Shown in pieces: positions 6,897 to 26,983 of a stretch of 41,205 nucleotides of DNA (position 1 is the stretch's first letter; the number at the start of each line of letters is the position of its first letter). The stretch is from Candidatus Cloacimonadota bacterium (GTDB lineage: Bacteria; Cloacimonadota; Cloacimonadia; Cloacimonadales; Cloacimonadaceae): positions 1-41,205 of the forward strand of contig JAJBAV010000026.1 in NCBI GenBank assembly GCA_020532085.1. The letters run 5' to 3'. The notes below the pieces were generated by a model. It was not told the DNA's origin. It did no database searches and saw only the letters and a list, made by a program, of their open reading frames with translations. The translations under genes were made by a program, and so were the position numbers.

Positions 6897-6918
6897 GCGG
6901 AAACATCTAAAGCCACAT

Positions 6919-7229
6919 AAAAATTGGCTCTCATCCAAACTGAGTGGAAACAGCCCGTGAGGGCGACAGAATGATAGCGAGGGTGTGGAGGCGCGGCTTC
7001 AGCCGCGACGGAACCCCTCGTACACCGTGCAGATCAAACCTGATTTTCAAGGCCACCAACCCACCCCGAAACGCGGTGCGCTTCGGAGTGGGTTGGTGGC
7101 AATTTTCATTAATCCTCGTGCTGTCGCGCAACGAGGGGCTTACGCGCCCTCGCCATGACCTGTCGCCCTCCGGGCTGCCTTATGGTTGATCACTTCCACC
7201 CACTCGGCTTGAAGAGAGCCAAAAATTAG
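6919..7229. repeat. ~310-bp imperfect inverted-repeat element
   Basis: Most of the intergenic space 6897-7289 folds back on itself. The ends match inverted (AATTGGCTCTC near 6920-6933 against GAGAGCCAAAAATT near 7214-7227, continuing into a shared GAGTGG block). Inner blocks pair in the same order: CAGCCCG..GAGGGCGACAG at 6951-6969 with 7160-7177, GCGAGGG near 6977 with 7148-7154, CCCCTCGT near 7014-7021 with 7131-7138, and a 19-bp near-perfect arm at 7052-7070 with 7082-7100. No protein is encoded. It could be a MITE-like element or two inverted copies of a ~150-bp repeat; no transposase is nearby. Confidence 0.72.
7052..7100. repeat. central hairpin of the inverted-repeat element
   Basis: The arms 7052-7070 (GCCACCAACCCACCCCGAA) and 7082-7100 are complementary at 18 of 19 positions around an 11-base loop. 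The arm is GC-rich and would form a very stable stem in RNA or a cruciform in DNA. It is the centre of the larger inverted repeat and is not followed by a T-run, so it is not a classical terminator. Confidence 0.8.
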
Positions 7230-7289: not shown

Positions 7290-7934
7290 TTACAGAACTG
7301 AAACAGAGCCCTTGAGTTCCCGCAGGCTGATCTTCTGCATCCTGTCGGGGGCGTTGGGATCGGTCTTCACGCGGCCTTGCCCGAACTGCCACCACTGGTG
7401 GTCAGCCTTCCCCGGCACACAAAGGTTGAAGGGCTGGGAAGTGTGGTCCAGCGGATCGTTTCCTCCCACCATGGCCCGCGATACCAGCACAAAAACGTCA
7501 CCTGGGGCCAGGTCCAGCTCAGCCAGCGGGATCACCTGCGTGTACACGCTCTCGCATTGGCTCAAAGTGGCTTTGTACCTGAATTTCTCCGGCTGGGGCA
7601 GGCCTTGCCAGTCGGCAGGGATCTCCGCCTCGGAACGGGCAATGTTCAGATCCAGCCCCGCCAGTTGCCAGTTTTCGGAAAGATAGTAAGAAACATAGAG
7701 GTTTTGGGCATCGTTGGCCACAAAGATGTAGCCGGGTTCCACCCTGCTCCCCTCCCAGGCAGGAAGATCGATCAAGTCGCCAGATACGGCGCCCTTTACG
7801 TCAACTGTCTGAACCGCTTCGTTCTCCGCAGGTTGGGAAACATCCAAAGCGGTGATCTTGTTACCTTCCTGGCAGGCGGTGAGTACCACCAAGGCCAGGA
7901 CCATCAGCAGGCTTGTCTTTATCGCGTTGTTCAT
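7290..7934 (-). CDS. lipoprotein of unknown function
   Basis: The 214-residue protein has a lipoprotein signal peptide with lipobox LTAC (Cys at residue 21). The mature part is beta-rich with aromatic patches such as YIFVANDAQNLYVSYYLSENW and HQWWQFGQG, reminiscent of small carbohydrate-binding-like sandwich domains, but I cannot assign a family. The ATG has AGGAG (TAGGAGATTAAA) at good spacing. The gene stands alone between repeat elements, with its own predicted promoter and terminator. Isolation among repeats could reflect acquisition, but base composition does not look different by eye. Confidence 0.85.
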   Translation of the reverse strand: MNNAIKTSLLMVLALVVLTACQEGNKITALDVSQPAENEAVQTVDVKGAVSGDLIDLPAWEGSRVEPGYIFVANDAQNLYVSYYLSENWQLAGLDLNIARSEAEIPADWQGLPQPEKFRYKATLSQCESVYTQVIPLAELDLAPGDVFVLVSRAMVGGNDPLDHTSQPFNLCVPGKADHQWWQFGQGRVKTDPNAPDRMQKISLRELKGSVSVL

Positions 7935-8250: not shown

Positions 8251-8437
8251 TGTCCCGCCCTGAGCCCTTTCCCCTCCGCCTCTTCTCCGCCTCCCGCATA
8301 CTTCCCGCCTGACAGGGGGGAAGTATGCGGGAGGCGGAGAAGAGGCGCATCGGAAGTGTGATGAGGGCGGGGCCTGGCCGATCTGCCGGAAAAGTGACGC
8401 GGCAACTCCGCACACATCCTCTTGTATAGTGGGTAAC
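8251..8437. repeat. dispersed palindromic repeat, copy A
   Basis: This ~187-bp unit begins TGTCCCGCCCTGAGCCC and ends TATAGTGGGTAAC. It is homologous to copy B at 25326-25509, which begins TATCCCGCCCTAAGCCCC and ends CATAGTGGGTAAC. At its centre is a perfect 30-bp stem (8277-8306 with 8318-8347) around an 11-base loop containing CCTGACAG. The two copies share ends, loop and the inner stem CTTCCC..GGGAAGTA, but differ in the outer stem. This is the pattern of a palindromic intergenic repeat family (REP/MITE-like). No coding function. Confidence 0.85.
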
Positions 8438-8485: not shown

Positions 8486-8512
8486 CAAAAAACCCGCCAG
8501 AGGTGGCGGGTT
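8486..8512 (-). terminator. intrinsic terminator of the 8541-9071 gene
   Basis: Arms 8491-8499 (AACCCGCCA) and 8504-8512 are perfectly complementary around a 4-base loop. On the minus strand the stem runs into six T residues. It lies 29 bases beyond the stop codon of the minus-strand gene. Confidence 0.88.
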
Positions 8513-8540
8513 CGAATTCTGGCGGTTTGGTAAAGGAATC

Positions 8541-24449: not shown

Positions 24450-25235
24450 TTAAAATTCCAGGCTTAGTTTGATCCCCTTCAGATCGGGGGCGGGCGTCAA
24501 CGCCATGCGGGGAGTGCTGTTCAAGGTCAGCCGCGCGGAGAGGTAACCGATCACGGCACCGCAAAAAACATCGCTGGCCCAGTGCTCATCCCCGTTCACC
24601 CGGGACCAGGATGCCAAAACTGCCAGACCATAGACCAAAGGGGCAACCCAGGCTTGTTCGGAATACTGCTCCGCCAGTACCGGCGCCACGCTCCAAACCA
24701 ACGTGCTGTGGCCGGAGGGAAAGGAATCGTGGCGCAGGGAAAAACCACCTTCGGGCCAGAAATCTCCGTCACTGGCCCCGCCAGGACGCTGCCTCTGGCT
24801 GGCCAGCTTCAGGCCCTCACTGGCCGCGGAGGCCAGGAGCATGCTTTTCAGGCAGAGCAAACCGGTGTCCACGCTTTTGTCGGAACCGGCCAGACAGCCG
24901 GCCAAAGCCGTTACCCCCGCCGCGGGGAAGAGGATCCACTTGTCGCCCGCGTAGCCCAAGCCGTGCAAGGCGGCGTCGTTCCAGCCGATCCTGTGGTTCT
25001 GGGTGAAATCCCTGATCTGGGGGTCGGCCCAAACCAGGCTTCCTGCCACCAAGACCACTCCGCCCGCCGTGAGCCAATCCTGGGTTTGCCAGCGCGCCGG
25101 GGCCGTTGCAGCCTCTTTCACGCTGAACGGATATGAGGCCAGATACCGCCGGAAATGGCCGCTCTCCGCCTCCCCGCTCAAAGCGGAAGCGCAGAGCAAG
25201 TTCACAGCCAGGACCACGATCCATCTTCTTGTCAT
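24450..25235 (-). CDS. PAP2 family lipid phosphatase
   Basis: The protein is 261 residues from the ATG at 25235, which opens a signal-like hydrophobic segment (MTRRWIVVLAVNLLCASALS). The three PAP2 motifs are present: KLASQRQRP near residue 155, FPSGHSTL near 185 and SRVNGDEHWASDV near 220, giving the catalytic His pair and Arg residues for phosphatase chemistry on undecaprenyl pyrophosphate, phosphatidate or similar lipids. Several hydrophobic helices fit an integral membrane enzyme. It is convergent with the kinase gene, 76 bases away. A longer TTG-started frame reaching 25322 lacks a ribosome site and is not preferred. Confidence 0.9.
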   Translation of the reverse strand: MTRRWIVVLAVNLLCASALSGEAESGHFRRYLASYPFSVKEAATAPARWQTQDWLTAGGVVLVAGSLVWADPQIRDFTQNHRIGWNDAALHGLGYAGDKWILFPAAGVTALAGCLAGSDKSVDTGLLCLKSMLLASAASEGLKLASQRQRPGGASDGDFWPEGGFSLRHDSFPSGHSTLVWSVAPVLAEQYSEQAWVAPLVYGLAVLASWSRVNGDEHWASDVFCGAVIGYLSARLTLNSTPRMALTPAPDLKGIKLSLEF

Positions 25236-25325: not shown

Positions 25326-25509
25326 TATCCCGCCCTAAGCCCCATCCCCCTCACTTCCCCTTGACTTCCCGCTTACTTCCCGCCTGACAAGCGGGAAGTA
25401 AGCGGGAGGCGAGTGAGAGGCGAATGGGACAGGGCAAAGGAGGGGGACGGCAAAGAGCCGGTGAAGATCCCGCGGCGCTTGCGACCACCCCTCATCCATA
25501 GTGGGTAAC
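25326..25509. repeat. dispersed palindromic repeat, copy B
   Basis: This ~184-bp unit has the same ends as copy A at 8251-8437 (TATCCCGCCCTAAGCC at the left, ATAGTGGGTAAC at the right) and the same loop CTGACA. Its inner stem 25367-25383 (TCCCGCTTACTTCCCGC) pairs perfectly with 25391-25407; the outer stem is degenerate. It fills most of the gap between divergent PAP2 and der, left of the der promoter box. No believable gene is inside. The two copies, 17 kb apart, define a repeat family in this genome. Confidence 0.85.
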
Positions 25510-25584: not shown

Positions 25585-25590
25585 TTGACA
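25585..25590 (+). promoter_or_regulatory. TTGACA box upstream of der
   Basis: TTGACAAAATA begins 61 bases before the der ATG. No good -10 is visible at standard spacing. As the only such box at this distance in front of the 17-gene block, it is the likely main promoter. A second TTGACA at 25531 is 115 bases away from the start. Confidence 0.5.
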
Positions 25591-25645
25591 AAATACCCCC
25601 TTTGAAAAGACTGGCGCCAAAAGCAACCGGGAAGTAAACCGCCGA

Positions 25646-26983
25646 ATGAGGAAATACATCGTATCGATCGTGGGTCGTCCGAATGTGGGCAAATCCACGC
25701 TGTTCAACCGCCTTTGCAGAAAGCGCTCCGCCATCGTTGACCCGGAAGCGGGGATCACCCGCGACCGCAAATACGAGGACGTGGAGTGGAACGGCAAAGT
25801 GTTCAAACTTGTGGACACTGGCGGGATCATATTCGACAGCAGCGAAGCCATGGACAAGATGATCCGCCACCAAGCCCAGCTCGCGATCGACGAATCTGAC
25901 CTGATCATCTTCATGGTGGACGCCCAGACCGGCACCACGGACATCGACAAGGCCATCGCCAAGATCCTCTTCCCGCACCGCGACAAGGTGATGCTGGTGG
26001 CGAACAAGGCCGACAACGAGAAATTCGAGTGGGAACTATACGATTTTCTGCAGCTGGGTTTCGGCGATCCCTTCCCCATTTCCGCCTCGCAGGCCCGCAA
26101 CACGGGAAATTTCAAGGATGAACTGCTGGCCCTGATCCCGGAAACGCAGAACGCTTACGACAACGACGAGCCTCACAACACCCGCATCGCCGTGGTGGGC
26201 AAGCCGAACGTGGGCAAATCCTCGATCGTGAACCTGCTGCTGGGCAACGAAAAACAGATCGTCACCGATGTTCCCGGCACCACCCGCGACGCGGTGGACA
26301 GCGTTTTTCGCTATCACGGCAAGGAATACGTGCTGGTGGACACCGCCGGCCTGCGCCGCAAGACCAAGGTCAATTACGGCGTGGAATACTACAGCGTGAT
26401 GCGCACCATCGAAGCCGTGGACAGATGCGACGTGGTGGTGCTGGTGCTCACCGCGGACGAGGCCATCTCCGATCAGGACGTGAAGATCGCCTCCTATGCC
26501 AAACGCCGCATGAAGGAGATCCTGGTGGTTTTCAACAAGTGGGACCTGGTGGACAAAGACAACAAGACCACAGGCAGGTTCATCGCGGACCTGCACGAAA
26601 TGATGCCCTTTCTGCAATTCGCGCCGGTGCAGTTCATTTCCGCCAAAACGGGCCAGCGCATCAACCGGATCATGGAGATGGTGGTGAAGATCGAGGAGGA
26701 GAGCGAAAAACGCATCTCCACCAGCGAGCTGAACCGCTTCATGGAAACCGTGGTTGAACATCGCCCCCCCACCCACAGCACCGGCAAGCATGTGAAAATT
26801 TATTACCTCACCCAGGTGGCCGTGAAACCTCCAACCTTCGTCTTTTTCTGCAACCAGCCCGCTTTGATCAGCGAAAACTACCGGCGTTTTCTGCACAATC
26901 AGATCCGGGAAATGTTCACCTTCGAGGGCGTGAGCATCAAGCTCATCTTTCGCGGCCGGAAGGAAGGAGAGGTGGAGCAGTGA
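25646..26983 (+). CDS. der: ribosome-biogenesis GTPase Der (EngA)
   Basis: The 445-residue protein has the tandem GTPase domains unique to Der, required for 50S subunit assembly. The first P-loop is GRPNVGKS (10-17) with DTGG (57-60) and ANKAD (119-123). The second is GKPNVGKS (185-192), with DTAG and FNKWD further on. A C-terminal KH-like domain follows (about 360-445). The ribosome site before the ATG is weak (GGGAAG 12 bases upstream). It leads the large plus-strand block and its stop overlaps the plsY start (GTGA). Confidence 0.97.

Follow-up and report, generated by a model that had tools for sequence, protein, structure and literature searches.

Dispersed bacterial palindromes for which a driver is known are mostly explained by RAYTs. 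Long palindromic repeats of other kinds, such as the Correia/NEMIS elements, the Rickettsia palindromic elements and BOX, are 100-200 nt long, non-coding and present in many copies. In parC, 11-bp direct repeats that all face the same side of the helix are bound by ParR.

The repeats described here were noticed as two palindromes, copies A and B, in a stretch of 41,205 nt of Candidatus Cloacimonadota DNA (below, the window), which is the entire contig C26 of a 2.81-Mb genome with a completeness of 99% (G000). The family to which they belong is ordinary in kind, being one of dispersed palindromic repeats. With MITEs and other long palindromic repeats it shares size, palindromy, copy number and non-coding nature; it differs from MITEs in that no target duplication was seen and no parent transposon was found (Y1_Tnp alone was searched for), and in that its period and architecture outlast sequence turnover between species. 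As for the parC iterons, the present units are instead dispersed and inverted into palindromes, and no ParR-like protein was identified. The REP/REPIN-RAYT systems are similar in combining genome-specific dispersed intergenic palindromes with one related gene family in the genome, as described in PMC3116915. However, the REP/REPIN unit is 20-40 nt long and bears a GTAG/CGTC tag, whereas our elements are of about 120 nt and consist of units phased at 11 nt; besides, REP copies flank a Y1 (HUH) transposase, whereas the product of the gene linked to our hairpins has no known domain. PMC3733652, which deals with REP and RAYT, uses neither "11 bp" nor "periodic" as a term. Titles and abstract openings that we searched, subscription papers being outside the scope, contained no hairpins of this type in Cloacimonadota. 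What is unusual about the family is its one-turn phasing, kept despite sequence turnover, its homogenization in place, and its tie to a new small protein family and not to RAYT-type genes.

Copies A and B

Copy A (positions 8252-8372, plus strand) is a palindromic repeat of about 120 nt, recognized both as a match to model R1 and as an inverted repeat. The outer stem of the copy is CCGCCCTGAGCCC..GAGGGCGG. Its arms (8269-8311 and 8313-8355), of 43 nt each, show 91% complementarity and include a mismatch-free run of 30 bp, CGCCTCTTCTCCGCCTCCCGCATACTTCCC; the right arm is an exact repeat of 30 bp from the left arm of the same copy. Copy B (25327-25446, plus strand) also matches model R1 and has a perfect inner stem of 17 bp (25367-25407), outside which it is degenerate, its 58-nt arms being 71% complementary. 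The orientation of copy B was taken from its tail, as the element is a near-palindrome that matches model R1 on both strands, slightly better on the minus one. The two copies can be aligned without gaps over 105 nt with 77% identity. Thus, arm analysis confirmed the stem lengths given in the earlier note, and the left end, loop, inner stem and right end that it had described as common to A and B are indeed present in both.

The right end, or tail, of copy A (8426-8437, minus strand) reads ATAGTGGGTAAC on the plus strand and promoter-like GTTACCCACTAT on the minus strand, as seen in the tail alignment, and is directed through the hairpin towards a hypothetical-protein gene (7290-7934, minus strand). 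The product of this gene has a lipoprotein-like start and no Pfam match. The tail of copy B (25498-25509, minus strand) is directed towards a PAP2-superfamily gene (24450-25217, minus strand), whose called start is at 25217 and whose longest frame reaches 25322. On the other side of copy B lies a gene (25646-26983, plus strand) which we take to encode a der/EngA-like GTPase; the best full-length match of its product is 86%, and one further genome has matches of 90% over 343 residues and 97% over 76 residues. A conserved promoter-like block, TTGACAAAAT...AAAAGACT, precedes der at 25585-25612 of the window and in many relatives and is a candidate for a general Cloacimonadota promoter.

The window contains three hairpins scoring at least 16, A and B included, as compared with none in one block-shuffled version, and ATAGTGGGTAAC occurs in the genome 20 times in exact form, as compared with zero occurrences of its reversed control; chance is therefore excluded. 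A search of the window against Rfam yielded no matches above the gathering score, and a search for tRNAs in it yielded none.

A Dispersed Repeat Family

The family to which copies A and B belong is dispersed, non-coding and REP/MITE-like. A search of the genome with copy A gave 59 matches, counted by strand, and the covariance model derived from 26 copies recognizes at least 38 distinct places in G000 (a lower bound, 61 candidates having been scored), so that the family, initially believed to consist of two copies, is far larger; many copies were also found in five congeneric genomes. Outside inward, the terminal stem (CCGCCCTTAGCCCC / GGGGCTAAGGGCGG) is followed by the arms, which are composed of 11-nt units (GGGA(A/G)G(T/C)+4 in G000) and enclose a small loop. 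The whole element is thus one imperfect palindrome with a terminal stem, i.e., terminal inverted repeats are present, and the G000 consensus ends are CCGCCC/GGGCGG. The mean column identity of the 26 aligned copies is 77%. This alignment (A1) goes back to 33 places, of which C3d and C41 were left out of the placement analysis (31 places), three weak places (C12b, C2c and C15b) also of a set of 28, and C12a and C4 also of A1; the weak matches L129 and L130 were not used.

According to our own gene caller, none of the 31 hairpins lies inside a called gene. Thirteen are placed between convergent, 14 between tandem and four between divergent genes (divergent vs. convergent, p 0.049). The right end shared by A and B had been considered a fixed end of the family; however, ATAGTGGGTAAC occurs in exact form within 260 nt of only 10 of the 31 copies and is missing from 21, with one further copy carrying it with two mismatches. 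This shared end is promoter-like in sequence and not a constant terminus of the element. Only five of the 10 tails of solo copies are aimed at a gene read in the same direction, and regulation of unrelated genes from their leaders was for this reason rejected as a general role.

Homogenization within Genomes

The G000 model has many matches in G002, G006, G008, G010 and G012, a smaller number in G001 and G004, and two in G005; nothing was found with it in G003, G007, G009 and G011. The consensus sequences differ from genome to genome, a given unit sequence being confined to one genome or to a few that are related. When 26 copies from G000, 21 from G002, 20 from G006 and 20 from G008 were compared, together with one from locus L108 (three copies scoring below 30 bits against the G000 profile were kept), the nearest neighbor of a copy belonged to its own genome for 77 of the 87 copies of the four genomes.

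Hairpins are present at the sites of both A and B in the sister genome G002, and at site B also in L108. The same-site identity between G000 and G002 is 0.667 for A and 0.672 for B, the mean of all G000-G002 pairs being 0.672. The mean identity of A and B to copies of their own genome is 0.690 and 0.675 in G000 and 0.780 and 0.764 in G002, with mean within-genome identities of 0.692 and 0.764, respectively. Since same-site copies of the two genomes are no more alike than any others, they must have been replaced or converted in place; scattered 120-nt elements are under concerted evolution. The small protein linked to the family (see below) offers a direct test of the mechanism.

The tails have fared differently at the two sites: that of copy B is identical in G002 amid diverged surrounding sequence and absent from L108, and that of site A is degenerate in G002. 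In G010 the genes flanking copy A are present with no hairpin between them, so that the same site is occupied in G000 and G002 and empty in G010, the flanks being too diverged to show a duplication; locus L080, inspected by eye, seemingly has the PAP2-der arrangement without hairpin B. Of the mobilized unit proposed in the earlier note, the dispersed copies, their common architecture and the hairpin-free site in G010 are thus borne out; neither movement itself nor any insertion or transcript was seen.

Pairing of the Arms

The perfect stem of copy A had been attributed either to gene conversion within the palindrome or to selection for the fold. When arms were shuffled among copies in aligned columns, the own arms of a copy proved generally no more complementary than the arms of other copies from the same genome, and slightly less complementary for the outer portion of the elements in G000 and G002 and the inner portion of those in G006. 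They exceeded the arms of other copies in two regions only: in G000 over the inner 11 bp (0.853 vs. 0.794, permutation p 0.0004) and in G008, weakly, over the terminal stem (p 0.016). RNAalifold reported five pairs with changes on both sides. Disagreements between arms are of the G.T/A.C kind vs. the rest in 60 vs. 27 cases in the mid stem and 106 vs. 32 in the outer stem, 12 vs. 30 in the inner stem and 32 vs. 69 in the terminal stem. It is the consensus of each arm, and not the pairing of each copy, that is conserved, and general selection for the fold is not supported, as arm shuffling shows no overall excess of own-arm pairing. The former alternative fares better for copy A itself, whose exact 30-bp arm repeat is as expected from recent copying between arms.

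The 11-Nucleotide Period

The identity of arms to themselves at a lag of 11 nt, which is about one helical turn, is 0.56 in G000, 0.595 in G002, 0.472 in G006 and 0.458 in G008, the next best lag giving 0.376, 0.386, 0.396 and 0.295, respectively. In G021 and G028, which represent other genera of the same family, stretches of 400 kb and 210 kb surveyed de novo contained 11 and 12 hairpins, respectively (N was excluded in G028 as well as in G003). Their lag-11 identity is 0.465 in G021 and 0.481 in G028, as compared with shuffled maxima of 0.332 and 0.340, and lag 11 is the best one in 7 of the 11 and 11 of the 12 hairpins, as it is in two of the three hairpins of the window and one of the two found in 237 kb of G003, one of which is built of 11-nt units. 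The units of G021 and G028 (examples are ATTCCCATATC and CACCCTTGTCT) differ from those of G000, and the G000 model finds no match in G021 and 23 weak matches in G028 (best E 7e-7). Architecture and the 11-nt period thus persist family-wide while the sequence changes between species. As to the control from another family, G043, its 367 kb contained two hairpins with stems of 14-15 bp, lag 11 being nominally the best in one of the two and in the mean (0.424); with such a small sample this control is informative about the number of hairpins and not about their period.

In G005 and G011, the leader of a gene for a protein of about 148 aa supplied the unit GCTTATGTCCA. Counted in 36 genomes as two tandem units with one mismatch allowed, it has 68 matches in G005, 79 in G009 and 89 in G011, numbers that include the leaders and several matches per array. 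None of the 33 other genomes has more than one match, and the control gave 0 in G005, G009 and G011. The protein subclade encoded behind the GCTTATGTCCA leader (86-100% identity) occurs in these three genomes as well, represented in G009 by two partial matches; outside them the best near-full-length protein match is 52%, with short fragments of up to 62%. Close kinship or common descent of G005, G009 and G011 may account for their sharing of unit and subclade. A second unit, CTTGATTAAGG, was counted as two units with up to two mismatches. Its counts are high (20 to 130) in G001, G003, G004, G008, G017 and G020, low in some other genomes (16 in G009) and zero in G000, G002, G006, G010, G011 and G012; its distribution is patchy and crosses genera.

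The Linked Gene Family

The gene for the protein of about 148 aa belongs to a multi-copy family present in all 36 genomes of the same taxonomic family and in 5 of 23 outside it. The tail in its promoter-like form, GTTACCCACTAT, lies upstream of a member in 5 of 20 cases in G000, one of them cut by a contig end; a tail upstream of the gene was also found in two of four cases in G001, where both genes are broken or truncated, and in two of four in G003. In these leaders the palindrome stands between a promoter-like motif (about GTTACCCACTATATATRGAGGGG) and the gene downstream, and a TTGAC-like stretch is common 18-14 nt before the promoter-like motif. With a profile of dispersed copies (E<0.01), a hairpin was found at 6 of the 13 loci of the gene in G000. 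Over the 44 of 50 leaders that have the full 380 nt, a hairpin (score of at least 11) precedes 13 of the 44 gene copies, as compared with 24 of 155 other genes with at least 200 nt of upstream space (p 0.047); with hairpins frequent between these genes in general, the enrichment is modest. C7:19592 is the only one of the 38 best model matches listed that is situated at a copy of the gene, and none of the 31 hairpins has it as the nearest called neighbor; the members of the repeat family in the leaders of the gene are diverged ones.

All 38 members of A2 were searched against Pfam and NCBIfam with nothing below E 0.05, two members gave no match in PHROGs, and the best match to PDB sequences had E 0.13. 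The structure of the protein, predicted with confidence (pLDDT 90.1, pTM 0.72), consists of beta strands followed by helices, and for this model Foldseek found nothing at E<=0.001 in PDB (best E 2.1) or BFVD, with a best Z of 2.6 in VIA. As the model matches no solved fold at this threshold, no DNA- or RNA-binding fold backs a role of the protein in recognition. Two unit patterns, the tail motif and one family protein gave zero matches in viral contigs.

Several further features of these loci were observed. The leaders upstream in L151-L154 lie amid other dispersed repeats, of the ATTCGTGTAATTCGTGGACA and CTCTGTGCCTCTGTG types. Of the broken genes, that in L161 retains the leader hairpin and that in L065 the tail. 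In L157, L202 and L204 (in G000, G033 and G021) two divergent members stand in tandem, the second one with MKVKFK/MKVIFK...TYSGT, which suggests a functional pair. Three loci of G028 (L058, L068 and L074) share an identical stretch of more than 100 nt that holds GTTACCCACTAT without a hairpin less than 50 bases from a contig end; it looks like a different mobile repeat breaking the assembly.

Possible Origin and Role of the Repeats

The reading that we tentatively prefer, and consider quite possible, is that of a two-part, REP/MITE-like system, tied to the new protein family, in which solo hairpins are copied leader-like elements and the 11-bp units are recognition sites for some factor. Leader-like elements would have been copied around the genome, and their phased units would be putative recognition sites, either in DNA or in the leader RNA. 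The recognizing factor could be the protein of about 148 aa, whose specificity would then shift along with the units. Homogenization might proceed by repeated short copying between places, through gene conversion or single-strand templated copying, and in copy A such copying would have taken place between its own two arms. Both the binding and the mobility of the repeat system are what we infer from these comparisons. Against this reading count the nearest-neighbor result for the 31 hairpins, the single gene copy among the 38 best model matches listed, the modest enrichment of hairpins before the gene, the divided direction of the solo tails and the missing fold match. A stricter form of it, which would make a new class of repeat system, is that the small protein of unknown fold, found in all Cloacimonadaceae-like genomes examined, recognizes 11-bp-phased palindromic arrays, foremost those in the leader of its gene, and is the agent of their spread or conversion, unit and protein co-diverging. 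We regard this form as doubtful; if it is true, each species acquires its own hairpin through co-divergence of unit and protein. Were the repeats functionless and selfish instead, alike through recent spread from a master situated in a leader of the gene, with the gene linked by hitch-hiking, one would understand the grouping of copies by genome, the patchiness of hairpin types among genomes, the empty site in G010 and the position of most copies away from the gene. Yet the sites of A and B are common to G000 and G002 without any extra likeness, and therefore in-place replacement is needed, not only new insertion; very different unit sequences, moreover, retain the 11-nt period, and we place this explanation on the unlikely side.

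It is unlikely that the repeats are sites useful to the host, kept by selection for a nucleoid, chromosome-organizing or RNA-processing factor, with the 148-aa gene as one user among several: copy number and unit type differ greatly between congeners, the G000 model finds nothing in four of the genomes named above (G003, G007, G009 and G011), and the tail has degenerated at site A in G002 and been lost at site B in L108, although one-turn phasing, strong architecture, intergenic placement and the tail of copy B, unchanged in G002 within diverged sequence, are what such sites would show. Mobilization of REPs by a RAYT-type Y1 transposase, for which the earlier note had recommended a search, agrees with genome-specific intergenic palindromes that are less frequent between divergent than between convergent genes, and seven Y1_Tnp matches are indeed present in G000. 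However, none of these seven loci (about 3.2 kb each) has a hairpin of this family at E<0.01, the best E being 0.036; set against the 6 of 13 loci of the 148-aa gene this gives, with few loci, a Fisher p of 0.051. The elements are also long, about 120 nt, the GTAG/CGTC end is absent from the G000 consensus, CGTC being confined to some G002 copies, which have it on the left, and PMC3733652, as said above, uses neither of the two period terms; this origin is quite unlikely. That the copies are ordinary intrinsic terminators or attenuators of convergent sequence is very improbable, even if many of them lie between convergent or tandem genes, as they are homologous over 120 nt, inspection by eye showed no T run after either end in the inspected copies, and copy A adjoins a separate terminator-like sequence, CCCGCCagaggtGGCGGG, at about 8493-8513 (also judged by eye).

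One more dispersed repeat was noticed in the window at about 6918-7225. It is of about 305 bp; its ends (TTGGCTCTC...GAGAGCCAA) are inverted, and a hairpin lies inside it at 7052-7100. Elsewhere in the genome there are about ten more copies, complete or partial, with 74-91% identity. Two of the seven Y1_Tnp matches (L285 and L283) have a copy or a part of it at a distance of about 0.5-0.6 kb, and this repeat, rather than the hairpin family, may be the RAYT-linked one.
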